From Allomyces arbusculus (Eukaryota > Blastocladiomycota > Blastocladiomycetes > Blastocladiales > Blastocladiaceae): a DNA stretch of 64,000 nucleotides. The notes beneath the pieces are model-generated. The model was not told the DNA's origin. It saw only the letters and a program-made list of their open reading frames with translations, and made no database searches. Positions 1,404 through 64,000 of the stretch are shown piece by piece. The first letter of the stretch is position 1; each line of letters begins with the position of its first letter. Both the position numbers and the translations under genes were made by a program. The stretch lies in assembly GCA_027604705.1 (NCBI GenBank), contig JADHYV010000021.1, positions 292,546-356,545 of the forward strand. The letters are read 5' to 3'.

Positions 1404-3897
1404 ATGATCGCGTCACGCCCACCGATGCCTGATTTGAACTCGGTCGCCGTCAACATCGTCGCGGTCGATCCGCTCGCCACCACGTCGCCCAGCACTGCCA
1501 TGACGAGAAACGACTCGCCGCAAAACACGGCGGCAGACCCGGGCTCCACGCCGACCCCGGCTGCAGCCACCGCCCTCGCAGTCGCAGCTGCTGCTGCGAC
1601 AGATTCGCTGCCAGCAGCCAGCTCGGCATCATCCGCCACTCGCCCAACAGGACACCCGCCCGCCATATCCACAAATCCGGCGCGCTTGCGCACTCCGTCC
1701 ACCGGCAGCAGCCTGACTGACACGGCCACGTCGTCGCCAACGACGCCAACCGCGCGCACCGCATCGCCGCGCACCTCCAACCCGCAAAGCGCACCGTCAT
1801 CCGCGCCTAATTCCGATGCTGTCGCCCCACAAGCACCGTCATCGTTCCCCACCGTCGGCCGCCACCGATCCGCGACCGTGCTCGGCTCAAGTAGCGGTAC
1901 CGGCTGCGGCCCCGGCAGCGCATCGGGAACCATGACCCGCACGACCACGTCCGTTTCGCGCGCGTGCATCAGTGCGATCTCGGGTGGCCGCACCGCCGGC
2001 GAGAGCATGCAGCGCGCGCGCACGGCCACGACCGTATCGGCCAACGGGTCGATGCATGACGTGACGCCGCCGCCGCCACCATTGCAATCCACAGCGTCGA
2101 CGGCCTCGCGCGTCATTGAGTCGCTGCTCCAGTCGCGCAAGCACATTGCGTCCTCCCGCACGGGGCTCAGTACCGTCGCCGGGTCTGGCACCGACTCGGA
2201 CTCGGAGTTTACGGGGACGCCATCGCGTCCGGCCAAGCCGGCACTGGTACGGCTCTGCTGCAGTTCGCAACTCCGATGGTGCGGTTGCTCATGCATCGTG
2301 TCTCGTAGCCCGAGCAAACGCGCTCGTACCGGTACCGCAACCTGACCGTAAGACAAATCCAAGAGTGGATCACGCCCGACAATTTGACCGTGCTTAACTT
2401 GAGGTACACGCTCGTTCAGGGTGCTGCCCTGCGACAGCTCGGACACGTTCTCACTAGCACCTCGCTCTGTGTAGCAACAACCAGCTCCCCGTGATTCCCG
2501 ACCCCATTTGCGGGATTCAAACGCTGCGCACACTCTCACTCAAGTGCGTTTCTGTGCAACCCTGGACGCGCATTTGGGAACACCACGCTCACGACTCGTT
2601 CTGCTCGAGTGTAGCTGGAACAATCTCTGTGACCTGAACCCAAAGCTTGTGCAGTTGCAGGCCTTGCAAACACTCGCGTTCTCGGCCAACCGGATCACCG
2701 ACGCATCGCTCCTCGCCGTCGCCTGGAAGGACATGCCCAACCTTAAGAGGCTCATGCTCGTGCAAAACCAGCTCAAGGAGTTTCCGAAATGTCTGCTCGA
2801 CACCAAGTGCGTTTCGCTTGTTCCAACTCTTCTCTCCATGATGCTGCATTTGACGTTTTGATCCAGTTTGGACACGCTCGCCCTCTCCAACAACGCCATC
2901 ACCCATCTGCCCGACGAGATCATCAACATGGTGCACCTGCAGTGGCTTGGGCTCAGCAACAACCAGCTGCGGTCCGTTGCGCCGCTGCACAAGATGCACC
3001 CGCTCTCCGGGCTCACGCTCGCCAACAACCCGCTCAAGGACCACGACGACGTGACGCGCGACCTGCAGTTTTTCACCAAAGTCATGCGTACGTTCTTACA
3101 ACATCTTGCTCTCTCGCCCACCTTGACTCACCCCTACCCCCCCCCCCCCCCAACTAGGCGTAACCAAGTCCTTCAGTATCCCGTCGCCGCTCGACACCGT
3201 GGAACGCGCACGCACCGCGACCAACCAGCTCGACGCCGAACTCATGCGCGAGATTGCGCGGCACGCAGCGACCGCGCCGCCCGGATCCCCGCTTGATGCG
3301 GGCGTCAATCCGTCTACACTCGACCTGGTCCTTGCCGGACGTGGCGGGGCCGCACCGTCACGGTCCGCATCGCGCACGACCTTCTCACTTGCGTCCAAGC
3401 CCAGCATTTTCCGCAAGAAATCGAAGCGCGGCGGTGGTCCCACCACTGCAGGTGCAGGCGTAACCGTCAACACGCGCCGCCCGAGTATTGTCGCGACGGC
3501 AGGGAGCATGTTTGCGGGAATGCGGCGCACGTCCAAAGGCGCCGGGGTCGCGGGGGCTGCCACCGCGGCCGTGGCTGCGAGTCCAACACCGAGTTCGGGT
3601 GGTGGTTTGATGGTCCCGGGGGGCGCGAGTAATTTGTCGGGTGGATTGCCGTCGATCGCGTCGGGGGTTGTCGAGGAGGATGGTGGAGGCAGTGTGGTCG
3701 GGAGTGTAGTGGCGCCGTCGATGATTGAGAGTTGTGCGTCAGGCGGCACGGCGGGATCGGCGGGGACGAGCGTGTCGTCGACGACGAGATTGGCCGAGTC
3801 GTTGACGCCAACTATGATCACAGCTGCGACGATTGGTGCGATGGGCGGAGGCAGGCTTGGCAGCGATGCGTTGAGTGGGGTCGCAGAACAGGACTGA
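1404..3897 (+). CDS. Leucine-rich-repeat protein, six exons
   Basis: Exons 1404-2246, 2309-2403, 2475-2543, 2615-2806, 2867-3087 and 3158-3897 give 719 residues. Splicing rebuilds canonical repeats: LTVLNLSNNQL, LRTLSLNWNNL, LQTLAFSANRI, LKRLMLVQNQL, LDTLALSNNAI and LQWLGLSNNQL, between about residues 305 and 470. Several introns cut within a repeat at equivalent positions. Residues 1-280 are a Ser/Thr/Pro/Ala-rich disordered region, and the tail from about 475 is Gly/Ala/Ser-rich. LRR proteins of this plain type are usually protein-binding scaffolds; no kinase, F-box or membrane segment is visible, so the role is unknown. Start is uncertain (in-frame ATGs at 1404 and 1425). Intron 5 has a long C tract before its acceptor. 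Confidence 0.85.
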
Positions 3898-4132
3898 GGG
3901 GAACTGAAGGAAATGCACTTTGGGTTTGAGTATGGGCGGCTGGTATAGGTTTAATGACAAGATATTATTCGCCAGGTCACATTGTTGCATCGTTACGGGT
4001 GCAGACATGGAGGTGTGTCGACCATTTGTGTACATCGTTATCGTTGGCATTTCAAGCATTCCAGCGTCGTTTGCAAATTGAAACTGCGGTCCAGCTTTTC
4101 ACGACAATTCCACTGACGCAAGGACCAGCAAT

Positions 4133-4526
4133 ATGAGCGACCAATGTCCTGAACGCTCGGCATGGTCACTCGAGATGCTGCCCCTGGTTCTGGATCGCAT
4201 CATCACTAGTGCTCTTGATGTCAGCGTTTGGCGCGACAAGCATGCTCTGCTCCACTTGGCTCTTGCCACGTCCGCCCTCTACGCACCGTGCCTACGTGTC
4301 TTGATTCGCGCTCGACGACTTGACTTTCCTCTGGAGCATCAAATCTTGGGAGAGTCCGACGTGTCGCCTGAATCTGGTCGAGCTCAATTTGTGGGATAAT
4401 TCCTTCGAAATAGGACCAACTGATCCCTCTGACAGTATTCGAGTGTTACGAATGGCTGAGTCCGGTTTGCATCAGCGCTGCTGGATTGCATGCCAACCCG
4501 GTACATGGACCGGCGCCTGCGTTTGA
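4133..4526 (+). pseudogene. F-box-like family relic
   Basis: An ATG at 4133 opens 88 codons with a helical, F-box-like start (EMLPLVLDRIITSALDV, then HLALATSALYAPCLRVLIR) before a stop at 4399. The +1 frame from about 4320 carries on with LRR-like text (NLVELNLWDNSFEIGP) until 4526, as expected of a frameshifted gene. The core closely resembles the relic at 20378-20840 (HLALAAPALYAPCLR) and more distantly the intact F-box-like gene at 39671. No plausible intron restores the frame. Confidence 0.5.
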
Positions 4527-5093
4527 TGCTCAAATACACCTCTGGGCAGGCAAACCGCCGCGGACATTTGACTCATCCTCGCTCATTCTTTTCCACTTGT
4601 CTGTGGTAATTGTGAAGCGTTTGGAAGGCATCAGTGATTGTGATCCGCGCAAAGGTTGCTGAGAGGACGGGAGCACTGATCGAAATATTGAAAGTATCAA
4701 TCGTCGTCGTTCCTGCTTTGTGTGAGCACATGCCAGCTTGGAAGCGACTGGAGAAGCGGTGGGTCACAATAGCATGGATGGTGTTCTTCCAATGAAAACG
4801 GCAAGCGCGGGATCCTGACAAGAAAAAAGTGACAGCAATGGTCCCATAATTGCCGAAAGAGTCCTACGATTGAAGACAAGCACATTTCCTATTTGTCGTG
4901 CTGGGTCAACCCTCTCCACAACATATGCGCTGTTCGCGCGCGCACACATCCTGAACCCATCAACGACTCCAAAGACGAAACGTTCGCCGAAGGCATGAAG
5001 AAAACATCTTTACGGAGCTGGGCGCTTTTTTGCCGGACCGCCTTCCTCCTCATCGGGGAATGGACGCTTGCCGCTAAGAGAAACGGACACGTA
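4527..5093. other. Stretch without a supported gene
   Basis: Lower-GC sequence downstream of the F-box relic and beyond the 3' end of the RBBP6 gene. Short minus-strand frames at 4573-4949 have fairly natural amino acid composition but shift frame and match nothing I know. If the RBBP6 gene has an extra 3' intron, its last exon would extend into 4889-5100. Confidence 0.4.
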
Positions 5094-7085
5094 TTAGCCA
5101 AAAGCACCACGACGTCGCTGGACCTCAAACACGAGACAGAAAAACACGCACGGATACATGGGCGGCCGCGGCGCGTTATTCGGCAAAGGCGGTCCACGAT
5201 GCCCCCACGGCCCCGACGGAGGCGGCCCACCGCCCGGAGGCATCATCGGCGGGCGTCCCATGGGCGGCGCCATCGGCCGGAACCCGCCCATACCCATGGG
5301 CGGCGGCATCATGGGGCGAGCCATACCCGCGGGCAGAGGTGGACCCGACGGCATCGGCATTTGAGGCCGTGGCGCAGCGCCAGCGCCAGCGCCGGCTCCG
5401 GGCGGCGCGCGGATCGTGATGCGCGACTCGAGCGACGATGGCGCGGCCTTGATTGTGACGGCCGACGTGACTTCGGTTGGCCGAGATTGTCGCGACTCGG
5501 CGTGCTTGCGCTGGAGGTAGTCGCGCACGTACTCGGTGATGCGCTGCCGCAGCGCATAGTTAGGCGTCAGGTTGTCGGGTGCAGCGGGCGACTTGCACTC
5601 GGGGCACGTAAGGTGCAGCATGCCCTCGGAGGTCAGGCTTGAGCGGATACCTGCGAGACGGGGAGAAGGATGAGAAGCAGCGGATAGAGACGACGCGTCG
5701 AAGAGAGACGAGGTACGAACATTCGTCGCAAAAGGCCGTGTGGCAGCAACTGATCTCGACGGCCTCTTTGAGAATCTTGTCGCACAGCGGGCACTGAAAC
5801 TCTCTGCGCACAGGTACGCTGTCCATAACGGCTTCTTCACTTGGCGCGGCGGTAGTCGTCTGCGCGACAATCTTGTTCCACGCGGCCCTGTCCAAAACCA
5901 TACGGAGGTCAGTTCCTGTGCAGACTCCTCGAAATCGAGCACCTCGAAACGTACTCGTTGGAAACAAACTTGACAATCTTGCCTTCCGGGTTCATCATGA
6001 CCGTCGATGCGTCAGCCGGGAATCCACCCTGGCCTGACCCGGCGTCGATCTCCTGCAGGAAACTCCTCGGAATGCCAGTCGTGCGCTTGACCTTGGGCCG
6101 GTCGTAGTTGGTGTCGCCGTTGGTCGGGCAGTCCTGGATAAAGTGGCCCTTGATCCCGCACCGGTAGCACACGTAGCCTGCGGGCGGTGCGCGGCCTGGC
6201 ATGCGGTTGTGGTGAGGCCCGCCCGGACCGCCTTGACCGCCGCCGCCACCACCGCCGCCGGGACCACCGAACCCTGTGCGTTGGATGCGCCTCATGCTAA
6301 AGAGCGAACGGGACGAGGTTCGTCAGCGTCGCATCCACTTGTGCCGAAAAATATCGAGAAACACAAACCCGGCCATCTTCTCCTGCGTCGCCTGCCAGTA
6401 ACTCGACCCTTCCTGCATGATCGCGTTGATACGGTCCTCCTCGTCCATTTCGCCGCCGTCCGGGCCATTATCGTCTCCGCCGCCACTACCGAGCCCAGGG
6501 ATCCCGCCCGCGCCGCGTCCACCGGGACCCAGGCCGGGAATGCCGGCGGGGCCGTTGTTGCCAAACAGCGACTGGCCGTGGTGAACGGGCACGAGCTCGG
6601 TCGTACCCCTCGACCCGTACCGGCCCTGCGGACCGGCACCTGCAGGCGCATCGTTGGCCGGGATTGTTGGCACGCCCATGTGCAGGTCGTCGGTTTTGTA
6701 CTTGGCGGTCCCGGCCTCGATGCCGTTCTTCTTGGCGTCTGGGACGGGGATACGGCGTACGACAATGGACGAGTTCCGCGGAACAATGGCCAGGTCGTCG
6801 CGGTACTCTGGCGGAGAGGCACACACGATCCAAAGAGAATGAGCACAAACCAGACGTGCAACAGAACAAATATATTGTCTTCATTTTCAAAAAGCATCAA
6901 GTGGAAGTGCGGCACCCACCTTCCCCCGTCTCGGCGTTGGAGAGAATCAAGTCAAAGTCCTCGCCTTTGAGTTTCTTGAACCGCACGATTTCGCGCTTGA
7001 GGTCGAACGCCGACATGCCCATGCCGTCGACGACGAGCGAGTCGTGCGCCTTGGCCGAGCGGAACTTGAAATGAATGAAAGACAT
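5094..7085 (-). CDS. RBBP6/Mpe1-like: DWNN, zinc knuckle and RING
   Basis: Exons in transcript order: 7085-6920, 6807-6369, 6296-5955, 5887-5721, 5650-5094. The start MSFIHFKF matches the first residues of DWNN (ubiquitin-like) domains, and the splice junction rebuilds EEYRDDLAIVPRNSSIVVRR. A CCHC zinc knuckle (CYRCGIKGHFIQDC) and a RING-type finger (CPLCDKILKEAVEISCCH ... CDEC ... CPEC) follow. The C terminus is a Pro/Met/Gly-rich tail. Known members (yeast Mpe1, animal RBBP6) belong to the cleavage and polyadenylation factor and have ubiquitin-ligase features; the nucleus is the expected site. The last exon reads through to a stop at 5094, but a donor-like GTGCGT near 5147 could add an intron, so the extreme C terminus is uncertain. 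Divergent from the AP-3 mu gene, 398 bp apart. Confidence 0.92.
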
Positions 7086-7483
7086 TGTGGATGCGGCGTG
7101 GTGCTTGGGTGCGGTCAAACTCGGGGCTGCTCAACGGCGCGAACAACGTGGCTCGCCGCTCAGACCTCTGGGCAAGCGCCTTGCAGTCGTGTCGGGAATG
7201 GTTTGCCACAAGTGGCACGTTGGTGATGTTGATGTATTCGAGGCGTTGGGTCGAGGACCAGAAGAGAAGGACGAGGAGGAGGCAGACGTGGCCCTGAAAT
7301 GACGCTGAAGATGGAGCAGGCGGGACTGATGTGGACGTTCTCCTTATTTTCCATTTCCTTGCCAGACCTTGGAAGTCGTGACTACCACCATTTGTGGCCT
7401 GACCAGCACCGTTCGGCTCGCTGTCCATACTCGACGTGCTGCAACATTGTGCAAATTGAACGGGTCAACAAATTACAAGCCAA
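7086..7483. promoter_or_regulatory. Divergent intergenic region, RBBP6 / AP-3 mu
   Basis: 398 bp between two divergent start codons; it must hold both promoters. I see no clear TATA box. Short frames here are not conserved coding sequence. Confidence 0.5.
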
Positions 7484-9547: not shown

Positions 9548-9703
9548 TGGGTGATAGGGTTGCGTGGATTTGAAATACAGACACCCTCCATTTTTTTGGC
9601 CCCGGTCGGTTTCCGAACAGACGATCTTTACAAAATTCACACTGTTTTAACCTATTTCGTATACTCTCTGCGAAGCACGCCGAGCTACAGCTGCTGGACA
9701 TAC

Positions 9704-11630
9704 TCACTCCAATTCGATCTCCTGCGCCACGACGACCTCATCCTCGGCCACGACCTCAGCCGCCAACGCCTTCTCCTCGCCACTGTGCTCTGCGGGCGGC
9801 TGCACGATGAGCTCAAACTCGCCCGCAATCGGGTAATGATCGCTCCCTTCGACCGCATCCGGGATCGGCCGCGCAGCCCGCACTTTCGGCAACTGCAGCA
9901 ACCGCACCGCGCGCGCATCCACGCGCCGGGACGCATGGCGGTATGCTGCGCGCACGAACCCCGGCACGGGCGAGACTCCCGCAACCAATGCCGTCCAGTC
10001 GCGCGGCACGTACCGGCGCGGATGCACCGACGCGTCGTCGCCGTGCCGCGCACCGAGTCGGCCATAGAAGACAAAATCGACCAAGTCACGGGACTTGGTA
10101 TGTGCCGAGGACACGTGACCGTCCAAGTCAGAGCCGCGGTACAGCGACTGCAAGTCGAACGGGTGCGTCGCGTACCGCGGAACCACGTGCCGCGCGCCAC
10201 GTTTGCGTGTGCCGCCCGTAATAGATTCCACCGTGTGCTGCTCTAGCAGGTCGGTTGCGGTCAGGGATTGCGCGAGGGTCGCGGCCGCGGGAGAGGTGGG
10301 TCGCAAGTCGGCCGGGTTCGCCGACGACCACCAGTTGACGGCGCGGTCAAAGTCGGCGCGCTGGCCCGCGAGTTCGTCGTCAGGCGCGGCAAGATCAACG
10401 GCGCCCGAGGCGACAAAGTGGTAGACGGCCGAGTGCGGCGCCGAATTGAAGTCGCCACAGACGAAGACGGGCACATCGGTCGGGTCCGTGTTGATGATCG
10501 ACAAGTCCTCGGATTCGGCGGGCATCGCCTCGGCATCGAGCATGACATGGATCCGTGTCAGGAGCGTGTGGATCTGGCCCACCTTGACAGCGCCGCGGCG
10601 CGGGTTGAAGAGAATGTGCGTGTTGGCGACCATGAGCTGGATCCCGTGCTTGGGCAAGACGAGGCGCAAGACCATGCCCACATTGTCGCGATCGAGGAAC
10701 GTGCCGGCGTGGAAGTACATGACGGGCTCGGCCTGCACGCAGGTGAGCCGGTCGGCGCGGTAGAAAGTGGCCACGCCGTCTTGGTGCGCGTCGGCGTTTT
10801 GCGTGCGCTGTTGGTAGTGGTCTATGGAGGGAGGCAATCAGTTGCGAGCCCGGAATGGCGAGAAATCATCCAACAACACGTACAATGGTACCCCAAGGTG
10901 AGCAGGTCCGGCGCAATATCACGCACCAGATCCCTTTCGTGGATCTCCTGCATGCAAATCACGTCCGGATCGTGCTCTACGAAGCAATCAGGTGTCAGAT
11001 GACATCCGCTTCGTCAATCGTCCAAAAAAGCAAGCATCAGCATCCGCACATACCGCGCACCTGGTGCAAGATGCGCTGCCACCGTTGGTCCCACCGCAAC
11101 CAGTCCATGGGCGCGTTCTTGGGGTACAAGTACCGGTTCTTGAACAGCAAATTGTCGGCCAGCACGTTGTAGCTCATGACACGTATCGACGTCGCGACTT
11201 CCCCATCTGCCAACGCCGTCTCATCAGCGTCGTCAACGGGCGCCCATATCCGCTCGTGCGCCGCGGGACCACCGGCTTGTATCGAACCGCTCGACGACCG
11301 ACGGCCACCGCGGCCCGCGCTGCCGCCACAACCACTACCACCACCGCTTGACGGCCGACTCGCACTCCATTCCCCACGACTGCTTGACCGTGATCCGCCG
11401 CGTGACCCACTGCGAGCCGAGCTAGTGGACGAGCGCCGACTGCCCGCGCGTGATGCTTGGTCGCCATGGTCGCGGGCCGAATTCGAGAAACTGGACATGG
11501 CAATCTTGACGAGATCCTTGTTGGCAGTCTGACTTGCAGTTACGGCGTGAAGTTGACGCTGTACGAGCGCGGTTGCAGCAAGTCGGGGAATGCTGGCGAG
11601 CTTGGAAGCCGAACTTGCGAATCTGATCAT
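9704..11630 (-). CDS. Endonuclease/exonuclease/phosphatase enzyme, ANGEL/CCR4 type
   Basis: Exons 11630-11054, 10976-10884 and 10821-9704 give 595 residues. The EEP fold shows its metal and catalytic motifs in order: SYNVLA, a Glu in CMQEIHERD (junction of exons 1 and 2), NTHILFNP, CGDFNSAPHS and GSDHYPI. The phrase LFNPRRGAVKVGQI is typical of ANGEL/CCR4 deadenylase-like proteins, which hydrolyse RNA 3' ends or 2',3'-cyclic phosphates. The N-terminal 35 residues (MIRFASSASKLASIPRL, Arg/Ser-rich) could target mitochondria; a longer start exists at 11705. A Ser/Gly/Arg-rich linker precedes the catalytic domain. The family is sure; which deadenylase subgroup is not. The start lies only 157 bp from the HGPRT stop, in the same orientation. 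Confidence 0.85.
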
Positions 11631-11786
11631 CCACCAGCACTCAGCCGCAGCCGAGCAGTGCAGCCCAACGTTCAAGTTTTGCTCACACATCAAAATGGAT
11701 TGCATTTTTCCTATGTAGAATCATCACGCAAAATTGGGAAGCCAACCCGCCAACGCGCCGCGCAACCGGGCAGTGCCGTTAACGGC

Positions 11787-12609
11787 TCAATCGTACTTTT
11801 GCTTGCCCGTCTCGGAAATCACGCAAACGTGGTCGAGGTCACGGAAGATTTCGTTGTAGTCGAGGCAGTAGCCGACAATAAACTGGTCCGGGATCTCAAC
11901 GCCGACATAGTCCGGGATGTACCCGACCGACTTGGGCGTGCGCTTGAGGAAGAGCGAGACGACGCGCACCGACGCCGGCTGGTACTCGGCAAGCTTGGCG
12001 AGCAGTGCGGTCATGGTCGCACCCGTGTCGATAATGTCCTCGACGAGCAGCAGGTGCTTGCCCTTGAGGTCTCGCAGCTCCTGCTCGGTGTAGGAAATGG
12101 TCACGTTGCCCGACGACTTGTCGCCCTCGTACGACTTGACCTTGATGAAGTCGAGCTGCATCGGCAGGTTCTGGCCCGCCGCGTTGGTGCACTTCTTGAG
12201 CCGGTTGACGAGGTCTAGATAGAGGAGCAGCACGGGGTTGTCAGTTCTGCGAGTCGTTTTGGGTCGAATATGGTCAAATAAATAAAGAGAGCACGCACCA
12301 GCAAAGAATGCGTGACCGCCCTTGAGAATGCAGCAAACGGCTACGGAAAAAAGCGAATTTGGCGATGAGCACCCATGAACGATGGCTGAACTTCGAAAAG
12401 GGCCAGAACGCAAGCGTACTCAGCGGGCCCTCCGTATCCGCGGCAATTTCGTTTGCCAGCTTCTCGACGCGGTCCATGATCATGCCGTGCGGGATGAGCA
12501 CGCGCTCGACATCGTCCTTGTAGTGGCTCGGAATCACAAAGTGGCGGAGCGAGAAGCCGGGCTCCTCGTCCCCAATCACAATCCAGTTCTTGCTCTGGTC
12601 GGCGGCCAT
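11787..12609 (-). CDS. HPT1: Hypoxanthine-guanine phosphoribosyltransferase
   Basis: Exons 12609-12420, 12340-12299 (42 nt) and 12214-11787 encode 219 residues, the usual HGPRT size. The spliced product has the N-terminal EEPGFSLRHFVIPSHY, IPHGMIMDRVEKLA, CCILKGGHAFFADL (built across two introns), the PRPP-binding signature VEDIIDTGATM near residue 135, and the C-terminal FRDLDHVCVISETG. The enzyme salvages hypoxanthine and guanine to IMP and GMP using PRPP, in the cytosol. The protein resembles animal HPRT more than short yeast Hpt1 in its domain length and motifs. The start matches the family's beginning; upstream in-frame ATGs extend into what I take as the 5' UTR. Confidence 0.94.
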
Positions 12610-13276
12610 GGTTGCGCGAGAGCTGGTGACATGACCGTGGGGCGTGTTGTCGACGGTGAGCAACACAGAACGGGGCGAGAAGGTACAAAAGGTGCGCAGG
12701 GGGAGGCCCATCCCGGCCATGGACAGAATCGAATTCAAGTCGCCCGTGCTCATCATGGTAGGTGGTGGTCGTGCATTCGGGACCTTACCTTGCAGCGTGA
12801 GCGTAAGCGGGGCGGACAGGCGGGCGGGAGCAGGAGCGTCTGCTGCCGGTCTGTGCGGCTGGTTCCTGCCGACCAGCTTGGACTGGGTTCGGCTTGTTGT
12901 TGGTCGAGGCGTTGCCCGGATTTGCAAGCCGTTTGAGTCGCGATCAAGTCGAGCTGAAGGAGGTGGCTGGGGGGAAAAGTGGGCCCTGGGTCTTGAGCGT
13001 GCGCACGACGCGCTCGCCTGACTTGGCTGCCACAGCCATCAACAGGCGTCTGCGCCACCAACGAACGCTCGCAAACACTTTTCCGACGCTTCCAACTCTG
13101 CTTGAATCGGCCTCAACCGGCATCGACAACATCAACCTCACTCGACGGGACCAGCAAAATCGCGCTGCAGTATACCGACACTTGGAGCACGGCACGACGC
13201 GGGACCGACTTGCGGACCCGACATTGACCTGGTGTAACTGTGAAAACGGCTCCAATCGAGCAGCAAAGCATCAATC
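12610..13276. other. Divergent intergenic region, HGPRT / lipase
   Basis: 667 bp between divergent starts. Frames within it are low-complexity and not supported as genes. It presumably carries both promoters and 5' UTRs; no TATA box is evident. Confidence 0.4.
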
Positions 13277-17368: not shown

Positions 17369-19856
17369 ATGGCTGCCGAGTTCTCGCAGCTCGACCGGCA
17401 AAAGTTCAATCGCTTCCATCTCAAGACGATTGTCGTCTCGGGAATTGGCTTCTTTACCGATGCGTTCGACGTAAGTGTGCCGCTCATGTTGTTTAAGGCG
17501 TTGGTGGCGTTGTTGCTGCTCGTTCTCGAGCTCGCAGCTCGCTCGTCGCGAAACGCCCCACTTTGATGTCAACTTGATTTCGACTTTGCTGACGAGTGAA
17601 TCTTGCTCGCGACCTGGTAGATTTTCGTCATCAACTTGGCCATCCCGATGATTGCCTTCACTTGGTACTTTACCGAGAAGAAGGACATTGGCAAGGCCAA
17701 CCACATGCCTGTACGTTTGTAGCTGACGATGACGTTCATTCTGGACGTTCGACGACGGGAAACTGATCGCGTGTTTGTGAAACAATTCTAGTCGATCGAG
17801 ACGTCGTTGCTCAAGGCCTCGACCCAGGTCGGCACGCTCATTGGCCAGCTGCTCTTTGGTTACCTGGCCGACAAGCTTGGGCGCAAGTCCATGTACGGTC
17901 TCGTGCTTGGTATCATGATTGGTGCGTTTGCGCTTGCTCAAGGCAACTCGCTGTCGCTTTTTTACACGATGACTGACCACGCCCTCTCTCTCCCGCTCCA
18001 GTCTGCACGTTCAACACGGCGCTCGCGGCCCCAACCATCTCTTTCTCGATTGGCGCTGTCTTGATCTTCTGGCGATTGATTCTCGGCGTTGGGATCGGTG
18101 GAGATTACCCTATCTCAGCCGTGATCACGTCCGAGTTCGCGTCGGTGCACACGCGCGGTCTCATGGTCGCGGCCGTGTTCGCCATGCAGGGGCTTGGGAT
18201 CTTGGTCGCGTCGCTCTGCGCGATCATTGTCCTCGCCGCGTTCCGCCCGATTCTCGTGCCTGACCACGAGGGTACCGTCTACATCAAGTACCTCGACAAC
18301 GTCTGGCGCCTGCTCTTCTTCCTCGGTATGTTCATCGCGACGCACCGCGACCATGCCCCCCGGGCGGCGGGCCCCGCGCCGCCCCCAACCCCCCCGGGAG
18401 GGGGGGGCGGCGGCGTGGGGGGGACTGGGCGNNNNNNNNNNTTTTCCTGTTTTTGTTCAGCGGTGTGCTCCGTGACACTACCTGACCCCCCCCCCCCCCC
18501 CCGCCCCCTGCCCGCCGCTTTCTGGCACCGATCGGACACTCGACCTATTTCCCTCCATCCATAACCGCTTGTTTTGCACTCCTAACAATTTTGTAATTCG
18601 GCAAACCAGGAATTGTCCCTGCGATGCTTGCGGTCTACTGGCGACTGCAGATCCCCGAAACGCCGCGCTTTACGGCCGCTCAGGGCGACAAGGAGGCCGC
18701 TATGAAGGATTTGCAGAAGGTTGCGAACGAAATGGGCCAGATTGAGGGCGATATCCAGCTGCAAACTGCTGGTTCGTCGTCGGCGGCCGCCGAAGTCGCG
18801 ATCCCGCTCACGTCGTCGGCGCCCGTGATTCTCGAGGACAAGTACGCGCACCTGACGTTCGGGCAAGTGTTTGGCAACTGGAAGAACGGCAAGGTTCTCT
18901 TCGCCACGGCGGCGTGCTGGTTCCTGCTCGACGTCGGTTTCTACGGTGTGCAACTCAACCAGTCGGACGTGCTCAAGGTACTCAACGCCTGCGCGACTTG
19001 GCCACCGGGATCCGACCTGATCACTCACACATTTCGTGTCGTCACCACCAGTACATGGGCTACGGCAAGGGCGAGACCGCCTACGACTACTTCTTCAGTC
19101 TCGCGCTCGGCAACCTGATCCTGTCGCTGTGCGGTACTGTGCCTGGCTACTGGTTCACGGTCTTCACGATCGAGAAGCTCGGCCGCGTCAAGATCCAGCT
19201 CATGGGCTTCACGTTCCTGACCATCATTTTCATTGTCCTGGTACGTTCTGGCTGTGGCTTTGACCGTGGGGTGATCACACTCGACCGTCAGACCTCGGAC
19301 CGAACCCAAACTGACCCCGGCTGTCTCCATTCACCCACCAATAGACCGCCGCGTTCGATTCGCTCCGGGGCACGACCGGGTTTTTCGTGTTGTTCGTGCT
19401 TGCGAACTTCTTCTTTAACTTGTACGTGTCCCTTCGTCTCCCTTCCCCCCCTCTCGCCCGCGGACGTGATGGACGGAGCGCTGACCGTTTTCCGCCGATT
19501 TCCGACCGTCTAGTGGCCCGAACTCGACCACGTTTATCCTGCCCGCCGAACTGTTCCCCACCAAGTTCCGGTCCACCTGCCACGGCATTTCGGCTGGTGC
19601 AGGCAAACTCGGCGCGATCATTGCCGCGTTCGGTTTCGACCAAATCAAGGGCAAGAACGGCGAGAATATGTGGGTGATTCTCCTCATCTTCTCCGTATGC
19701 ATGGCAGCGGGCCTGGTTTGCACTTTCCTCATTCCGGAGACCAAGGGCAAGACGCTCGAGGAGCTGTCGAACCTGTTCTACTCGCCCGAGGTGGTCGAAA
19801 AGTACGGGCCCGCGCCTGTCGAGTACTCGGCCAAGGGCGACAAGGACGACGAGTAG
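17369..19856 (+). CDS. PHO84: High-affinity inorganic phosphate transporter, PHO84-like MFS
   Basis: Exons 17369-17470, 17621-17710, 17792-17921, 18002-18325, 18610-18977, 19052-19240, 19345-19421 and 19514-19856 encode 540 residues, normal for phosphate:H+ symporters. Seen in order: GIGFFTDAFDIFVINL (TM1), TQVGTLIGQLLFGYLADKLG, the phosphate-permease signature GVGIGGDYPISAVITSEF, IPETPRF before the central cytosolic loop, and NFGPNSTTFILPAELFPTKF followed by STCHGISAGAGKLGA in the second half. The central loop (about residues 235-310) is Ala/Ser-rich. It should import Pi at the plasma membrane. Intron 4 (18326-18609) contains the assembly gap, so its true length is unknown, but the flanking exons join in frame. 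Confidence 0.93.
18432..18441. other. Assembly gap (10 N)
   Basis: Ten N inside intron 4 of the phosphate transporter, flanked by G-rich (18400-18431) and C-rich (18487-18502) homopolymer-like sequence that probably blocked assembly. The N count is likely nominal. Confidence 0.95.
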
Positions 19857-44368: not shown

Positions 44369-45801
44369 ATGGCCTCGTCGCTCCGCTCTGCCGCCACGCT
44401 GCTCTCGCGCACTGCCGCCGCGCACCCGCGCCTGGCCGCCCGTCGTGCGCTCGCCACGTCGGCCGCGCGCCTGCAGGCCGCCGCTGCCGCGCCCGAGGTG
44501 GTAGTGTCGGCCCCGCTCGCGCACGCCGCCGCTGACGGCCCCAAGTTCCCCGGTGCTCTGCACTCCAAGTACACGCACGAGCTCGCCTTTATCAAGCAGT
44601 CGGCGGTCCTCCCGACCTACCGCGTGCTCGACCAAGACGGCCAAATCGTCGACGCCGCGCAGGACCCGAAAGTTGACGAGGCCTGGGCGGTCAAGGTCTA
44701 CAAGACCATGGTGACGCTCAACACCATGGACATGATTCTCTACGAGGCGCAGCGCCAAGGACGGATTTCCTTCTACATGACCAACTATGGCGAGGAGGCG
44801 ACGCACATGGGGTCCGCCGCCGCGCTCGAGCTCGATGACATTATTTTCGGCCAGTACCGCGAGGCCGGTGTCCTCATGTACCGCGGGTTCACGATCGACG
44901 AATTTATGAACCAGTGCTACTCGAACATGCACGACTACGGCAAGGGGCGGCAAATGCCCGTGCATTACGGGTCGAACAAGCTCAACTTCCAGACGATTTC
45001 GTCGCCGCTCGGCACGCAGTTGCCGCAGGCTGTCGGCGCCGCCTACGCGCTCAAGCGCGCTAAGAAGCCGAATGTGGCCATGTGCTACTTTGGTGAGGGC
45101 GCCGCGTCGGAGGGCGATTTCCATGCCGCGCTCAACATGGCGACGACGACCAACTCGCCAGTGCTCTTCTTCTGGTGCGTTTTACGTCCTTTCTTTCATT
45201 CTCTTGACGTTTTGGGCCCGGAAAATGACCAAATCAAACCCAAAATAGCCGCAACAATGGGTTCGCCATCTCGACGCCCGTCTCGGACCAGTACCGCGGC
45301 GACGGCATTGCCGCCCGCGGGATCGGGTACGGGATGCACACGCTGCGTGTCGACGGCAACGACGTGCTCGCCGTCTACCGCGCGACGCAATTGGCGCGCA
45401 AGCACGCGATCGAGCACTCGGAGCCCGTGTTGATCGAGGCCATGACCTACCGCGTCTCGCACCACTCGACCTCGGACGATTCGTCGGCGTACCGGTCGAA
45501 GCGCGAGGTCGAGGACTGGAAGGCGCGCGATAACCCGGTCACGCGGTTCCGCAAGTACATGGAGCTGCAGGGCTGGTGGGACCAGGGCAAGGAGGACCAA
45601 CACAAGAAGGAGACGCGCAAGTCGATCTTGGCCGCGTTTGCCAAGGCCGAGCGCGAGCCCAAGCCGCCGGTGGCCGACTTGTTCACGGATGTGTATGATA
45701 AGGTCCCGCCGCACCTCCTCGAGCAGGAGAAGGAACTGCATGCGTTGATGGCCAAGTACCCGGATCATTACTCGACGGCCGCCTACGCGCCGTCCAAGTA
45801 A
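44369..45801 (+). CDS. Branched-chain 2-oxoacid dehydrogenase E1 alpha
   Basis: Exons 44369-45174 and 45249-45801 encode 452 residues. The N terminus ([30 protein letters not shown]) is a mitochondrial presequence. [39 protein letters not shown] and [15 protein letters not shown] match BCKDH E1-alpha. The thiamine-diphosphate motif [17 protein letters not shown], the spliced [12 protein letters not shown] and the phosphorylation loop [17 protein letters not shown] follow. These features separate it from pyruvate dehydrogenase E1-alpha. The enzyme decarboxylates branched oxoacids from Val, Leu and Ile in the mitochondrial matrix; the Ser loop suggests control by a BCKDH kinase as in animals. 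Fungal lineages such as budding yeasts lack this complex. Confidence 0.95.
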
Positions 45802-47825: not shown

Positions 47826-48719
<894 letters not shown>

Positions 48720-57437: not shown

Positions 57438-58137
57438 GCGAGCACGGCGCACAGCTGCATGAATAACATAGATACGATGACGGACATGATTTGCAGCGAC
57501 AGTGCTCCGGTGGAAGCGCGAGACGCGCGCGAAGGCGGGAGACGCGCTTGCTTGCGGCTGTGCGTTGTGGAGCGTTCGATGGGCCGAGTCAGTGGCACGT
57601 GCCGTTGACGTCGTCGAACGCTTTCGGAAATCAAGCGGGGCCAGCGCTGCACAAGCCACGTTCCGGGGCCAAGTCGCGCAAAATTGCCAGCCTGGCGTCG
57701 CCGGTCTTCGTTTTCGCGATTTTGCAGTGCATCTTCCTGCACCCGCCGACTGACTCCGACCACACCGCACGGCCACCGCCTTGATTGATCGACCCGTGGC
57801 CGTGCTGCGCGCAACGACGACGGCGCCGCTGACAGCGCCGGCGCCAATCCGCTCCACCACGAACGTGCCCCACGCGGACCCACTGCGTAATCAATCGCGC
57901 CAGCGCCCGACCGCGCCGAGAACGAGCCCCGCTGCATCCGCATCCGTGCCGCCGCCGCCGCCGCTCCGCCTCGAGCGTATCCGGCCCGGACTCGCGCCCT
58001 GCCCACACGGCCGACAGGGCGACACGCGAACGATCAACTCTCTCTGGCCATCAATTCTTCCTCAAAAGCCGCGCGGCCCGCCCCGGTTCTTGCACGCTCC
58101 TCCCCACCTCCTCCTCGAGCCAACCCAGCACGCAACC
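57438..58137. other. Upstream region of phosphoglycerate dehydrogenase
   Basis: 700 bp without a supported gene. The dehydrogenase frame is open back to 57781, but that part is low-complexity and I treat it as leader and promoter. Confidence 0.45.
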
Positions 58138-59661
58138 ATGTCCAAGCAGCAGCAGCAGCAGCCGCAACAGCAGCAGACGACGCGCCCCGCAACAGCGCCG
58201 ATTACCGTGACCGCGCTCGCCGATGCCGACGTGGCTGCGCAGGCCGCCGCCGCCATTCTCGAGCGCCGCGCGTCCGGGTGTGCAGGCGACGCGCGCGCGT
58301 CCGGCACGTCGACCCCGACCGACGAGACGAGGCGGCAGCTTACGATTGCGCCCGCCGCGGCAGCTGCGGCCCTGCTCAACGGCACCATCACGGCCGCGCA
58401 GAACAGCAAGCGCATGCTGCATCGGTTCGACCAGTCGGAAGTCAAGGTGCTCTTGCTCGAAAACGTGTCCCCGGTCGCCGTACAAACGCTCGAAGCTGCC
58501 GGGTTCCAGGTCGAGACGTTGAAGGGCGCGCTTTCCGAGGACGAATTGATTGCGCGGATTGGCGACGTGCAAGTGCTCGGCATCCGGTCCAAGACGCACG
58601 TTACCGCGAAAGTGCTCGAGGCCGCGCGCCGGCTGCTCGTGATTGGCTGCTTCTGCATCGGGACCAACCAGGTCGACTTGCACGCGGCCTCGCTGCGCGG
58701 TGTCGCGTGCTTCAACTCGCCCTACGCCAACTCGCGGTCGGTCGCCGAAATGACGATTGGGAATATTGTCGCGCTCGCGCGCCAGTTGCCCGACCGCAAC
58801 CGCGAAATGCACCAGGGCATCTGGAACAAGGTCTCGGCCAACTGCTACGAGATCCGCGGCAAGACGCTCGGCATCGTCGGGTACGGCCATATCGGCGCGC
58901 AACTGTCGGTGCTCGCCGAGGCCATGGGCATGCGCGTCGTCTTCCACGACCTGCAGCAGATCATGGCGCTTGGTTCCGCGCGGCAACTTCGGTCTTTGAC
59001 GGACCTGCTCACGGCCGCCGACTTTGTCACGCTGCACGTGCCCGAAACGCCTGAGACCAAGAACATGATTGGCGTCAAGGAACTCGCGCTCATGAAGCCC
59101 GGCAGCTACCTGATCAACGCGTCGCGCGGGACCGTCGTGGACGTGGACGCCCTCGCGGCGAGTCTCAAGTCGGGCCACTTGGCGGGCGCTGCCGTCGACG
59201 TGTTCCCGAGTGAACCCGCCAAGAATGGACCCAACTTCCAGTCGCCGCTGCTCGGGTGCCCGAACACGCTCCTCTCGCCGCACATTGGCGGGTCGACCGA
59301 GGAGGCGCAGCGCGCGATCGGGCTCGAAGTGTCGCGCGCCATGGTCTCGTACGTGACCGAGGGTACCTCGCAGGGCGCCGTGAACGTGCCGGGCATCACG
59401 CTGCGCAGTCTGTCGGCGGCCAACCCGCTGACTGTGCGCGTCACCAACATTCACAAGAACGTGCCTGGTGTCCTCAAGAAGATCAACAAGCTGCTGTCGC
59501 ACTTCAACATTGAGCGTCAAACATCCGAGTCGCTCGGGCCCGTGGCGTACCTGGTCGCCGATGTCACGCTCGAGGAGGGCAAGCTCGAGGAGGAGCTGCG
59601 CATCATTCACCAGGGGATCTCGACGATCGAGGAAAACATCCTCAGTCGCGTCTTCTACTGA
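58138..59661 (+). CDS. SER3: D-3-phosphoglycerate dehydrogenase
   Basis: A single exon of 507 residues from the ATG at 58138. A Gln-rich, Ala-rich N-terminal extension covers the first 100 residues. The core starts VKVLLLENVSPVAVQTLEAA. It has IRSKTHVTAKVLEAARRLLV, GCFCIGTNQVDL, the NAD-binding GIVGYGHIGAQL (about 243-254), NASRGTVVDVDALA (active-site Arg) and LSPHIGGSTEEAQ (catalytic His about 381). The last 80 residues are an ACT domain (VRVTNIHKNVPGVLKKINKL), the usual site of serine feedback inhibition. The enzyme makes 3-phosphohydroxypyruvate, the first step of serine synthesis. The 539-codon reverse frame over this gene is a shadow. Confidence 0.95.
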   Translation: MSKQQQQQPQQQQTTRPATAPITVTALADADVAAQAAAAILERRASGCAGDARASGTSTPTDETRRQLTIAPAAAAAALLNGTITAAQNSKRMLHRFDQSEVKVLLLENVSPVAVQTLEAAGFQVETLKGALSEDELIARIGDVQVLGIRSKTHVTAKVLEAARRLLVIGCFCIGTNQVDLHAASLRGVACFNSPYANSRSVAEMTIGNIVALARQLPDRNREMHQGIWNKVSANCYEIRGKTLGIVGYGHIGAQLSVLAEAMGMRVVFHDLQQIMALGSARQLRSLTDLLTAADFVTLHVPETPETKNMIGVKELALMKPGSYLINASRGTVVDVDALAASLKSGHLAGAAVDVFPSEPAKNGPNFQSPLLGCPNTLLSPHIGGSTEEAQRAIGLEVSRAMVSYVTEGTSQGAVNVPGITLRSLSAANPLTVRVTNIHKNVPGVLKKINKLLSHFNIERQTSESLGPVAYLVADVTLEEGKLEEELRIIHQGISTIEENILSRVFY

Positions 59662-60187
59662 GCAAAGCAAGGCGGGGTGGTGTGTTCTTTTATTTGGGCT
59701 GGGTTTGTGATTCTATTTTTTCTTTGGCGCCGTTGCTCGGCCGCGAATTCCCTTGGCTGCTTGATTTCCTCTGGCGGGACCGCGCTCCTGCTTTTGATCC
59801 GTTTCCCTTTTTATTCGTTTGTCGGTTCTCGCTGTGTGCGTGCATTGTGTCGGTCGACATAAAATTGAATTCGCGAACGGATTCGTGTCAAGTTTCCCTG
59901 GTGTCCAACGTCGGTGTGGCTTGGGCACTGTCATGAACAGAACTGAAAGACACCATCAATGACATGCTCGACGCCCGTCTGTCACAATCATGATCGACAC
60001 CAGCTCAACGCGCGCAAAGGCATCAGCTCATGCTAGGGAACCATGATTGCTTGCGGCGAAGCATCGTCAGTGCGAACCGAATTGAGCAACTTTTGAACGC
60101 GAACACCAGGAATGATCACAACGAACTTCTCCAAGTCCTCCTCGCATAAATACGCGACGGCCCCGCGAGCGGCCGTGAGCTCGCATC
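59662..60187. other. Intergenic with possible minus-strand F-box trace
   Basis: The T-rich 3' UTR of the dehydrogenase runs to about 59930. On minus, a frame at 60116-60304 has F-box-like text (LPMVCEEITVVLVVASRSGR, then ALVCRRALEDI); it may be another relic of the F-box family. Confidence 0.35.
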
Positions 60188-60837
60188 TTGGATATCTTCC
60201 AGCGCCCTGCGACAAACGAGCGCGGAAACTCTTCCACTCCGACTTGCGACGACCAACACGACCGTGATTTCCTCGCACACCATGGGCAAAGTAATCTGGT
60301 CCATGTGGGGCCATTACATGGGCCTGACAACCGCCGCGTGTTTGTCGTCCTTCTCCACCCGTTCCTGCCGCCACCACGAACCATGCTGCTCACACACGTA
60401 CTCCCCACAGGTCTCATCGACGGCGGCTTCCTCGCACTCGCGTTCTCCTGGCCGTCACTCGATATTTTCCGAAAGTACGCACGCCTTCAACGTACTTCCC
60501 TTCCACCTTTCGCTCGCCCCTTTCTCACCTCGTTTCGCGATCTAGAACCCTCCCCGTCCTGTACCGTCCACTCTCTATCCCTGGCGTCGCCGCCATCGGC
60601 CTTGGTCTCCTCGCGCTCGCCCTCGAGCAGCTTGGTGTATGTGCGCGCTGTCCCAACGCCCTCAAGTTTGTCCTCTACCTTGTCACGGCCCTCGTTGCCG
60701 GATTGCAGTTCTCGTGCGTGATTGGTGCGCAGTTTGCGGTCGTCACGGCGATTGTGTACCTGCGCGCTGCGGTCGCGGGGGAGACGGCCGGAGGAGGAAA
60801 GGGGGCCAGGGATCGCGTCGGGCCGGCCAAGGTCTAG
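60188..60837 (+). CDS. Putative small multi-pass membrane protein
   Basis: Exons 60188-60474 and 60546-60837 join in frame (192 residues if the ATG at 60188 is used). The hydrophobic part starts at FVVLLHPFLPPP, with LIDGGFLALAFSW, then PGVAAIGLGLLALALEQLG, LKFVLYLVTALVAGLQFS and CVIGAQFAVVTAIVYL, giving three or four membrane helices. The tail is Gly/Lys-rich. The N terminus is uncertain: the first 60 codons are not hydrophobic, overlap a possible antisense F-box trace, and translation could start at the Met at 60383. No family recognised. Confidence 0.5.
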
Positions 60838-61217
60838 CGAAAGGCGTTGAGAGAGTTCCTCTTGCTGCAGCGCACCGCAGACAGGGAAGCAGGGGATTGC
60901 ACATTTTGTGTCGTGATGATACCAAACCGGGTCAAGCGACCCGTTTCTTTCGACTCGAGCCGGTCCCTATTTGGACGCGTTCTATTTACTGTCAAAGAAC
61001 CGAAACCCAGTTCGGAAACGGCGCGATGGCAGTTTCCCATCGTTGTCATGCTCAGCGTTCCCACGATCCCACGCACCGCACTGCACGGCAGTTGCGTCCC
61101 GACTCACGTGTAACGTCGTGTTGCGTTTGAGCCGTTGCTCTTCTTCATCACCTCGCGCGCGCGCAGGACATGCAGTGGCCTCCTTGATCACCCCACATTC
61201 GGACCCCGTCCACCGCC
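60838..61217. other. Intergenic, 380 bp
   Basis: No gene seen; 3' UTR of the membrane protein and promoter of the SAM-like gene. Confidence 0.4.
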
Positions 61218-61972
61218 ATGTCCAACAGCCTCGCCAGCAGCCTGGCCAGTAGCACCCGGTCACGCACGTCAAGCACCGCCTCGGGCGCCGGCGCGTGGAC
61301 CAGCGACGATGTCGCGTCATGGATCCGCGCGCTGCAACTGCCCGTGCCCATCGAGTCCAAGCTCCTCGCATACGTGTACGACCACAACCTGGACGGCACG
61401 CGGCTCGTCGGCATCGCGGTTTCCGACCTGGTCGCCAGCGCGGGTCTACCGCGCGTTTGGGCCGGCGTGGTCGTCGCTCACGCGCGCACGCTGCGGCTGT
61501 CGCGAGGTGCATTCTAGTCGAGTAATGTGTGCGAGGGTAAGAGCGGGAAGCTCACAGTGATTTGACGCGGATAGCGGCCGTGCCGATGGACGAGACGACG
61601 GCGCTGCATCTGTCGCTACTCGCGGACCTCGTGGCCGGACTGGATGCGGTGCGCGACGCGGCGGTCGCAGCGGCTGTGGACGCGGCCGACGCGAAATTGC
61701 GCGCGGTCGAGGCTGGGGTCGTGGCCAAGGTGGACGCGCGGGTGGCGGACGCGACCGCCGACATGACGCGTGTCGTTCGGCACGAAGTCGAGATGGGGAT
61801 GGGCGCCGCCGCATGTCGTGACGACGTGGACCGTCACGGACTACTTCATGTGGGCTCGAGTCGTGGCGGGTTGCTGGGTAAACGGGTATCGGCGGACTTT
61901 CGCGAGGGGCTCGGTGTGGGGATCACGTTGGCGCTGCTTGTGGTGCTCTTGATGCGACAGGTTCTTGGGTGA
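61218..61972 (+). CDS. SAM-like, tail-anchored protein
   Basis: Exons 61218-61506 and 61551-61972 (236 residues) join through a short 44-nt intron with a GGGAAG acceptor; this junction is my best guess. A SAM-like helical domain (WTSDDVASWIRALQLPVPIE, then LLAYVYDHNLDGTRLVGI) lies at residues 27-95. After a short linker comes a helix rich in Ala, Asp and Val (LVAGLDAVRDAAVAAAVDAA) that could form a coiled coil. The last 20 residues are hydrophobic (GVGITLALLVVLLMRQVLG), suggesting a C-terminal membrane anchor. Such an order is known from adaptor proteins at mitochondria or ER, but no specific family is recognised. Confidence 0.5.
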
Positions 61973-63019
61973 GGGGTACGGCGTGACCTTGTTCGTCGAC
62001 CACGCTGCTCTGAGGAGTACCGTAGTAGCCAATATATTACGCCGTGCAACACGAGCATCATCACCGAACTGAGGAGTTGGGCAACGAAGTTGCACACGAA
62101 GGCAAACCTGGGGCAGCTTTGATTTTTTAAGTGGCTTCGCAAGCGAGCCCACGCCCAAATGCCCTGATCGAATGGTTTCCGCGAATGACTGTGACCTCGT
62201 TGGTCTTGCCCCTGCACATCAAAAGCAATTTGTCGGTGATGTTGACCTCCCTCCCGCTGTCTCTGTGCGTTCTCAAGCGGCAACACGCCTTCTATCCCCT
62301 CAGCGCGGATTACCATGTCATGCCGCCTGATGAACGTGCCCACCTGCATCCCAAACTGCAAAACGTCACGATCCAAAGCCGTTCCTTCCATGTTGCAGCC
62401 GTTTGTCATGTCTTGCTCATGCTTGTTGGGACGTTTGAGCAGAATTGAGCGTACATGTTTCTATTCGGGCGGAGCTGTTCGTGACTTCTGGCCGGACACC
62501 AGATCTGCAAGCCGTTGTCACTAGTGTTATCCGCTTTGTCAACCTGGCGCAGGAATTTGATCCCTAGCCCAAGATGTGGATCGTTGTTTTGTTGTTTTGT
62601 CCGCGAGCCTTGAATTGGATCAGCATCGCAATCATAATGGTCCTCGGGATTCTGCGGTCGCGTTCCTGGCGATTTGCAGCCACCAGCGCGACATGTAATA
62701 TCGGCAGGCCGTATGTAGTTGGGTAGAAATCGACACTTTCCACGACGTTCTGTGTAAGACGGACGGGGACTTGGCAAAACGGTCAAGCATGCTCGCTGCT
62801 GACAAAAGATATCTGGTGCAACAAATCCGCCGTGCCAATTCACCAAAGGCCATCTCATCATGTCGAAGGCGAGAAACACATCCATTGTGCCACTTGCAGC
62901 AAAGAACAAGCTCCTGCTCTCGCATGACGATTTCGTTATATAAAGGGCTTTCCTTCCCGACGACTATTGATTTCGCACCAAGCACCTGGACCACGACAGC
63001 CAACCAAACGCCAACCGTC
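61973..63019. other. 1.0-kb upstream region of pirin
   Basis: No gene supported. Minus-strand frames at 61846-62409 and 62406-62909 have fairly natural composition, overlap slightly and shift frame, which could be a relic of an unknown gene. The last 90 bp hold the pirin core promoter. Confidence 0.4.
62937..62944 (+). promoter_or_regulatory. TATA box of the pirin gene
   Basis: TATATAAA lies 83 bp upstream of the ATG at 63020, in a short spacer without other ATGs. This is the clearest core promoter element in the window. Confidence 0.65.
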
Positions 63020-64000
63020 ATGACCACCGTGCAAGCTGCGACTCCGCTCGTTCGCAACGTGGCGCGCACGTACGATGCACGCGAAACGCCCGAGGGCGTT
63101 GGTGTGACTGTGCGCCGTTCGATTGGCACGGATGAGTTGCCAGACCTTGATCCGTTTCTCATGCTCGACGAGTTCCGCGTGTCGCCGCCCGCCGGGTTCT
63201 CGGACCACCCGCACCGCGGCTTCGAGACGGTCACCTACATGCTCTCGGGCGCGTTCGAGCACGAGGACTTTGCGGGCCACCGCGGCAAGATTGGGCCGGG
63301 CGACCTGCAGTGGGTACGCACGCAAACGCGGTCACGCGATCCGGTGGCCGTCCGCGACCCGAATTTCACGCACACCTTGCTCGCAAATGTAGATGACGGC
63401 GGGCCGCGGCATTGTCCACGCCGAGGTGCCCATCGAGCAGGAAAACTCGGGTTTGCAGCTGTGGGTCAACCTGCCGGCCGCGCACAAGATGATGGAGCCG
63501 CGGTACCAGGAGCTGCTCGGCAAGGACCTGCCGCGTGTGCAGCCCGCAGATGGCGTCGACGTGACCGTGATCGCTGGCGAGGCCTACGGCGCGTCGGCCA
63601 AGGTCCGCACCGTCACGCCGATTTGCTACTTTGACATTCGCGTCGCTGCCGGTTCGTCGACCAAGGTGCCTGTGCCCGGCACGTTCAATGCGTTCGCCTA
63701 CGTGCTCGAGGGTGAGGCATTATTTGGCGGCAAGGCGACCAAGGGCGTGCGCGGCGAAGCGATTGTGTTTGATGCGCCGACTGAGGAGGACGCCAAGAAG
63801 GCGACTGAGGTGCCCGTCGTCGCTGGCGAGAAGGGCGTGCGGTTTGTTGTGATTGGCGGCGAGCCCATTAACGGTGCGGCAGCGACTCTACATCGGGTTT
63901 TGCGGTGACGATCGAGAAACTGACCAGCGATCCGACTTCCTCTTTTTCTAGAGCCGATCGTTCAGCACGGCCCGTTTGTCATGAACCACCCGCTCGAGAT
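63020..64000 (+). CDS. Pirin, 3' end outside window
   Basis: Exons 63020-63313, 63393-63873 and 63952 to beyond the end. The cupin motifs are clear: FLMLDEFRVSPPAGFSDHPH then RGFETVTYMLSGAFEHEDF (metal-binding His and Glu), DLQWMTAGRGIVHAEVP across intron 1, and LQLWVNLPAAHKMMEPRYQE. Intron 2 joins GGEPIN to EPIVQHGPFVMN, the normal pirin C-terminal motif, so the gene goes on for a short way past 64000. Pirins bind Fe in the N-terminal cupin; members act as quercetinases or as nuclear cofactors. The role here is open. A TATA box precedes it. Confidence 0.92.

Follow-up and report, generated by a model that had tools for sequence, protein, structure and literature searches.

Current models explain the fourth intron base (+4) of 5' splice sites, or donors, by two contacts: pseudouridine 5 of U1 small nuclear RNA (snRNA) and, in U6, the A in the middle of the ACAGA box, which is methylated in the case of +4A and unmethylated in the case of +4U. 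In human B complexes, N6-methyladenosine 43 of U6 (m6A43) is described as facing +4A, and in Saccharomyces cerevisiae, where this A carries no methyl group, it pairs with +4U (PMC9803359, PMC10581693); among 240 species, mostly Saccharomycotina, +4 shifts are reported to be almost exclusively between A and U (PMC10581693), and in published yeast comparisons, the presence of METTL16 and SNRNP27K goes with +4A. Donors with C at +4 are on record for green algae: the canonical introns of Micromonas are reported to favour AG/GTGCGT (PMC3879977), and those of Ostreococcus lucimarinus outside chromosome 2 carry GTGCGTG, which is termed an atypical consensus (PMC2483917). Here we describe the donors in a 64,000-nucleotide (nt) stretch of the genome of Allomyces arbusculus, a probable fungus (contig JADHYV010000021.1, positions 292,546 to 356,545; hereafter, the window), and in the whole assembly of 25.9 Mb (197 contigs). 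Most introns in this GC-rich genome start with GTRCG in place of the usual GTRAG. These are +4C donors, a kind already known in green algae, here with A preferred at +3. The bias is genuine and extends beyond the window.

Judging by 29 donors whose junctions were checked by protein homology (see below), A. arbusculus resembles Micromonas in the combination of +4C with +5G, a GC-rich genome and a CTGAC branch site, but Micromonas is a green alga with +3G and AG before the junction, whereas in A. arbusculus +3A is commoner (19/29) and the -2 position is unconstrained (PMC3879977). Ostreococcus lucimarinus shares the +4C consensus, but its donors are very strong (4.8 bits), which is called consistent with its intron-poor structures, whereas here +3 and +6 are loose (PMC2483917). 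Of the features of a Mamiellophyceae-type +4C class, the genome displays genome-wide dominance of C but not GTGCGT with +3G. It shows neither the +4U preference typified by S. cerevisiae (T in 4/29 vs C in 25/29) nor the METTL16-associated preference for +4A: A was found in none of the 29 donors and in 3 of 45 strictly filtered introns, although METTL16 is present, as is SNRNP27K with the residue that we take to be Met141. The Saccharomycotina likewise have a lineage-wide preference at +4 combined with an unchanged U6 ACAGA, but nearly all of their published switches exchange A and U, whereas A. arbusculus has C despite METTL16 and SNRNP27K (PMC10581693). A list of donors accepted for Hypoxylon stwintrons includes GTACGT, GTGCGT, GTACGC and GTTCGT, but gives GTAAGT, GTATGT and GTGAGT first, whereas +4A is nearly absent here (PMC9024468). 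Blastocladiella emersonii is similar in being an aquatic fungus with introns mostly of 60-79 nt; its donor logo, which is given in a figure, may hold an earlier fungal precedent for +4C (PMC2773782). We found no report of a fungus with dominant +4C in the literature open to text search, a search that does not reach figures and most subscription papers.

The +4C donor bias in the window and across the genome

Introns were modelled with a purpose-written two-strand gene finder, whose built-in knowledge is confined to GT, AG, codon statistics and intron content, so that GT and AG ends are imposed; the training set of 264 kb (62% GC) consisted of the window and a further 20 loci, each 10 kb long, spread over 20 contigs. 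Self-training started from GTAAGT yielded 75 introns in the window, with C at +4 in 57, T in 11, A in 4 and G in 3. Among those 55-120 nt long (n=66), the counts were C 53, T 9, G 3 and A 1, close to a hand count in a first-pass annotation of the window (66 introns, 52 with +4C and 3 with +4A). With the +4 column left unscored, 78 window introns were obtained (C 58, T 11, G 5, A 4), and the same number resulted when all donor-side columns were unscored and the acceptor columns scored (C 47, G 12, T 12, A 7). Across the 264 kb, self-training from the wrong start motifs GTAAGT, GTATGT and GTAGGT ended with +4C at 71%, 69% and 72%, respectively; without scoring of the +4 column, it gave 60% C and 8% A, and a flat donor model gave 46% C and 12% A (324 introns).

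That the +4C donor is genome-wide, a possibility that the annotation had raised, is supported by the 20 loci outside the window, where C occupies +4 in 149 of 217 introns (T 33, G 19, A 16), and by the pattern counts given below. A strict filter applied to the run with the learned donor model, requiring coding sequence on both flanks and a non-coding interior, retained 45 of 351 introns, with C in 37, A in 3, G in 3 and T in 2; the retained introns from beyond the window number 32 (C 25, A 3, G 2, T 2). The introns are mostly 60-90 nt long, with the donor consensus G/GTRCGY, the branch site ACTGAC and the acceptor YAG. The full hexamer GTRCGT, to which the annotation had ascribed dominance, is the commonest donor motif but falls short of a majority (77 of 255 introns); the firm part of the signal is +4C with +5G, +6 being mainly T or C.

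Junctions were checked by homology in ten genes, a non-random set comprising those named in the annotation apart from delta-tubulin (ARL1, HGPRT, BCKDH and a PHO84-like transporter), together with pirin, the splicing factors METTL16, LUC7 and SNRNP27K, LYS2, and SOD2, a neighbour of SNRNP27K. For ARL1, HGPRT, BCKDH, the PHO84-like transporter, SOD2, METTL16, LUC7 and pirin, the spliced gene-finder products were aligned to solved structures. Of the 42 modelled introns, 29 were kept, selected by eye as having the junction within well-aligned sequence; the 13 that were dropped (those beyond the aligned domain, within a fused neighbour, at the border of a locus, where the alignment was weak or lacking, at a start codon or spanning a missed exon) have C at +4 in 9 cases, G in 2, A in 1 and T in 1. 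The 29 homology-checked donors have C (25) or T (4) at +4, and neither A nor G; G (27) or T (2) at +5; A (19), G (7) or T (3) at +3; and T (17), C (7), A (3) or G (2) at +6, with -1G in 21/29 and -2A in 5/29. No junction has a same-length alternative GT-AG pair within 15 nt, and 14 lack any in-frame alternative in that range (+4 C 12, T 2). One ARL1 donor and one PHO84-like donor are +4T (Table 1).

The near-complete LYS2 (alpha-aminoadipate reductase) has three exons that score 855.6, 603.2 and 63.8 bits, the profile positions of adjoining exons abutting; no single exon reaches the family cut-off of 1030.1 bits, and sub-threshold matches to this family were also obtained in 12 of the 14 prokaryotic genomes used as controls. 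This LYS2 suggests that the organism is a fungus, and the delta-tubulin named in the annotation, if correctly identified, would place it among the zoosporic fungi. The exons of SNRNP27K leave one profile position between neighbours. Beside SNRNP27K (L026, G000:C1, about 881-884 kb), SOD2 (mitochondrial Mn superoxide dismutase) contains four modelled introns with the donors GTACGT, GTACGA, GTACGG and GTACGA, all of them +4C.

A pattern that requires no gene model was also counted, namely, a donor followed by ACTGAC after 30-60 nt and then YAG after 5-25 nt; the counts are of matches, some of which have a donor in common, rather than of introns. In the whole genome, GTACGT-ACTGAC-YAG gave 633 matches vs 48 for the reversed pattern, and GTAAGT-ACTGAC-YAG gave 31 vs 42, that is, no excess. 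In the 264 kb, where 60 permutations of the branch motif served as the control, GTRxGY donors (x being +4) had 22 matches for C (control mean 4.1, largest 13), 2 for A (1.0, 4), 3 for G (1.8, 8) and 5 for T (1.3, 6). In a separate count on the same sequence, the GTACGT form had 10 matches vs 1 in its own control. Within the modelled introns, CTGAC is concentrated towards the 3' end, where it makes up 83 of the 8670 pentamers counted, as against 7 of 4975 close to the start; 81 of the 255 introns contain it. The runs started from wrong motifs, the masked columns, the homology check and the pattern counts led us to reject self-reinforcement by the gene finder as the source of +4C. With GT-AG ends, a U2-complementary branch site, the U1 5' end ACUUACCUG and U6 ACAGAG, the introns are of the U2 type (major spliceosome).

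U1, U6 and the choice of base at +4

The only U1 gene found (L001 1501-1672; G000:C13:387885-388056) has the Sm site AAUUUUUGG and starts with the canonical AUACUUACCUG, contrary to the changed U1 5' end that the annotation had named as one of two possibilities. Its score of 41.8 bits is far below the Rfam cut-off of 69.5, which points to divergent stem-loops alongside a canonical 5' end and Sm site. A genome search at E ≤ 10, in which only the best candidates were scored, found no second U1 gene. Both U6 genes found keep ACAGAG (UACAGAGA), each reading GAUACAGAGAAG; a changed ACAGA box, the other comparison that the annotation had suggested, was accordingly rejected. The U4 gene (L035 1501-1625; G000:C124:2480-2604) departs from the Rfam consensus in the single-stranded part that follows the 5' stem-loop, with UUGCAAA in place of UUGAAAA. 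A METTL16-type gene with an NPPF motif is present, the top PDB matches of which are U6 A43 methyltransferases, with the related psilocybin synthases coming next; the model misses one exon, and the assignment covers the region outside the C-terminal domain. The SNRNP27K gene carries YRQYMNRKGGFNRPL, a stretch that presumably corresponds to the site of human Met141.

When the +4 base of the 29 donors was swapped, the mean duplex energy with unmodified U1 (ViennaRNA) was -7.27 kcal/mol for A, -6.86 for G, -4.30 for T and -3.84 for C, so that the genome is predicted to use the worst-pairing base at +4. In a study of human U1 binding, +4U and +4G were tested, and the oligonucleotide table lists no +4C (PMC4383343). 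Compensating contacts elsewhere in the donor, which the annotation had offered as the alternative to a changed U1, find little support: +5G (27/29) and -1G (21/29) are frequent, but +6T (17/29) and -2A (5/29) are less so, and the first three are no stronger in +4C than in +4T donors (+5G 161/185 vs 30/35; -1G 97/185 vs 24/35; +6T 109/185 vs 22/35). Given that the U1 and U6 genes look ordinary, the +4 base is probably chosen by something beyond simple pairing.

We tentatively favour a genuine +4C class of ordinary U2-type introns in which the +4 base is selected at the U6 step, opposite an ordinary A43. U1 would read positions -1 to +3 and +5/+6 of the donor, leaving C+4 and U5 unpaired between them. 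The +4 base would be selected later, on hand-over to U6, where C+4 would lie opposite A43 in the ACAGA box, either in an A.C pair or as a stacked cap. The weak U1 helix may ease the hand-over; of the pyrimidines that the A43 contact would accept, C may have been preferred to U because of GC pressure. A wider claim, which we consider possible but more doubtful, is that +4C constitutes a third 5' splice-site class beside +4A and +4U, which evolved in a fungus where METTL16 and SNRNP27K are retained and the pairing sequences of U1 and U6 are unchanged; the m6A43/+4A rule would then fail, and +4 would be set by another partner, be it a protein, a contact between A43 and C, or a U6 A43 that is edited or lacks methylation. 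A fungus in which purines are nearly barred from +4, even though its U1 and U6 genes are standard and METTL16 and SNRNP27K are both present, would be a natural counter-example to the current models, and a +4C genome is well suited to finding out how +4 is read.

Several points weigh against a +4C class read at the U6 step. The homology-checked junctions derive from the models of a trained gene finder, and 15 of the 29 have one to eight in-frame alternatives, each altering the length of the protein. Decoding without any donor-side motif gives a weaker +4C (46% and 48%), which we put down to false introns. In the 264 kb, the GTGCGT form of the pattern had no clear excess (8 vs 6 in the control), and once every position from +3 to +6 was left open, all four +4 bases shared in the excess before ACTGAC-YAG (A 14, C 32, G 20, T 30), as expected if any GT counts there. 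We know of no structure with +4C. Under the published rule, the presence of METTL16 would predict +4A, and the structures described have +4A opposite m6A43 and +4U opposite unmodified A (PMC10581693, PMC9803359). An alternative U6 register would set GGAACGAUAC against GURCGUUYY, with one bulged A, in an extended pairing; in 161 introns with +4C and +5G, +7T reaches 38% and pyrimidines at +8/+9 reach 74% and 68%, only slightly above the 60-70% at +10 to +20, so that this extended register finds little support.

Competing explanations for +4C

GC-biased mutation alone might have drifted a tolerant +4 from A to C, leaving +4C without function, an explanation that we regard as unlikely but deserving of serious weight. 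It fits the 62% GC of the sampled sequence, the +4C donors published for Micromonas and Ostreococcus (the Micromonas genome being reported as GC-rich, 64-66%) and the frequency of C before G in exons, where the CpG observed/expected ratio is 1.31 (1.09-1.12 elsewhere). Under such drift, G should rise too, and G wobble-pairs with U1, yet the 29 donors include 25 with C and none with G, an absence that GC pressure alone does not explain. The introns themselves hold both bases (C 30%, G 27% on the sense strand; C 29%, G 24% in interior GTRxGY on both strands), and GTAAGT introns show no genome-wide excess over the control. In non-donor GTRxGY on both strands of the 264 kb, C makes up 34% in intergenic sequence, 29% in intron interiors and 51% in exons; against the exon background, 25 of 29 has a binomial p of 7e-5. 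Relative to its own GTRxGY intron background, +4C is enriched about 3 times, whereas +4T stands at about 0.7 times, and GC pressure alone is therefore insufficient; base composition was rejected on these grounds as a sufficient cause.

It is improbable, in our estimate, that +4C is paired by a second, divergent U1 with G at position 5, or by a nucleotide of U1 or U6 that has been edited or modified, such as an inosine in the place of U6 A43. Near-exclusion of purines (0/29) together with a preference for C is what a G or inosine partner would lead one to expect, and the assembly may be incomplete, with only the best candidates scored in the snRNA search, but a single U1 was recovered even at the permissive threshold, both U6 genes are canonical, and nothing points to editing, although modification leaves no trace in DNA. 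We consider it distinctly improbable that a protein, such as LUC7, U1-C or Prp8, reads or stabilises +4C: the single LUC7 gene found is akin to yeast Luc7, which would be compatible with such a reader, but no specific change was detected in LUC7, the candidate looked at, U1-C and Prp8 being outside the search. A founder effect, with the introns deriving from a recently spread introner-like family that carried GTRCGT, recalls the introner elements of Micromonas, reported to have GYGCGT donors, but is very improbable, and an introner family was rejected, given that an all-against-all comparison of 260 introns on the same strand gave no non-self match at E ≤ 1e-3. Junctions misplaced by hand are hardly credible as the source of the bias: GC-rich open reading frames overlap heavily (180 of at least 150 codons in the 64 kb), so that boundaries are easily shifted, but the homology-checked junctions lack same-length alternatives and the model-free genome count agrees.

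Introns and neighbouring features of the window

The homology-checked introns located in the window are listed in Table 1.

Table 1. Positions, donors and alignment support of homology-checked introns (coordinates within the window; alternatives are in-frame GT-AG pairs)
Feature	Position	Strand	Donor	Alignment	In-frame alternatives
ARL1 intron 1	47896..47979	+	GTATGC (+4T)	gap-free protein alignment to solved ARL1	none within 15 nt
ARL1 intron 2	48064..48151	+	GTACGT (+4C)	solved ARL1	none within 15 nt
ARL1 intron 3	48159..48254	+	GTACGT (+4C)	solved ARL1; preceding exon 7 nt	none within 15 nt
ARL1 intron 4	48587..48666	+	GTACGT (+4C)	solved ARL1	two, both length-changing
HGPRT intron	12341..12419	-	GTACGC (+4C)	human HGPRT; one-residue gap two residues off junction	none within 15 nt
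HGPRT intron	12215..12298	-	GTGCGT (+4C)	human HGPRT	none within 15 nt
BCKDH E1-alpha intron	45175..45248	+	GTGCGT (+4C)	human BCKDH, gap-free at junction	none
PHO84-like transporter intron	17922..18001	+	GTGCGT (+4C)	aligned	one, length-changing
PHO84-like transporter intron	18326..18609	+	GTATGT (+4T)	aligned	none
PHO84-like transporter intron	18978..19051	+	GTACTC (+4C)	aligned	one, length-changing
PHO84-like transporter intron	19241..19344	+	GTACGT (+4C)	aligned	one, length-changing
PHO84-like transporter intron	19422..19513	+	GTACGT (+4C)	aligned	one, length-changing
pirin intron	63314..63392	+	GTACGC (+4C)	aligned	none
pirin intron	63874..63951	+	GTGCGG (+4C)	aligned	none

GTRCGY is the commonest GTRNGY word within exons as well (51% C, both strands, 264 kb), so that sequence by itself does little to set donors apart from exonic decoys. 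In +4C genomes, the use of gene finders that were trained on GTRAGT may lead to annotation errors.

ARL1 contains a micro-exon of 7 nt, ACGTTGA (window 48152-48158), lodged between introns of 88 and 96 nt, the flanking donors both being GTACGT; the micro-exon is required to encode the conserved GFNVETV.

On the minus strand, at window positions 9704-13039, the gene model joins HGPRT to an adjacent gene that we take, from its motifs, to be endonuclease/exonuclease-like. This fused model probably represents two genes, and the introns between them were left out of the homology-checked count.

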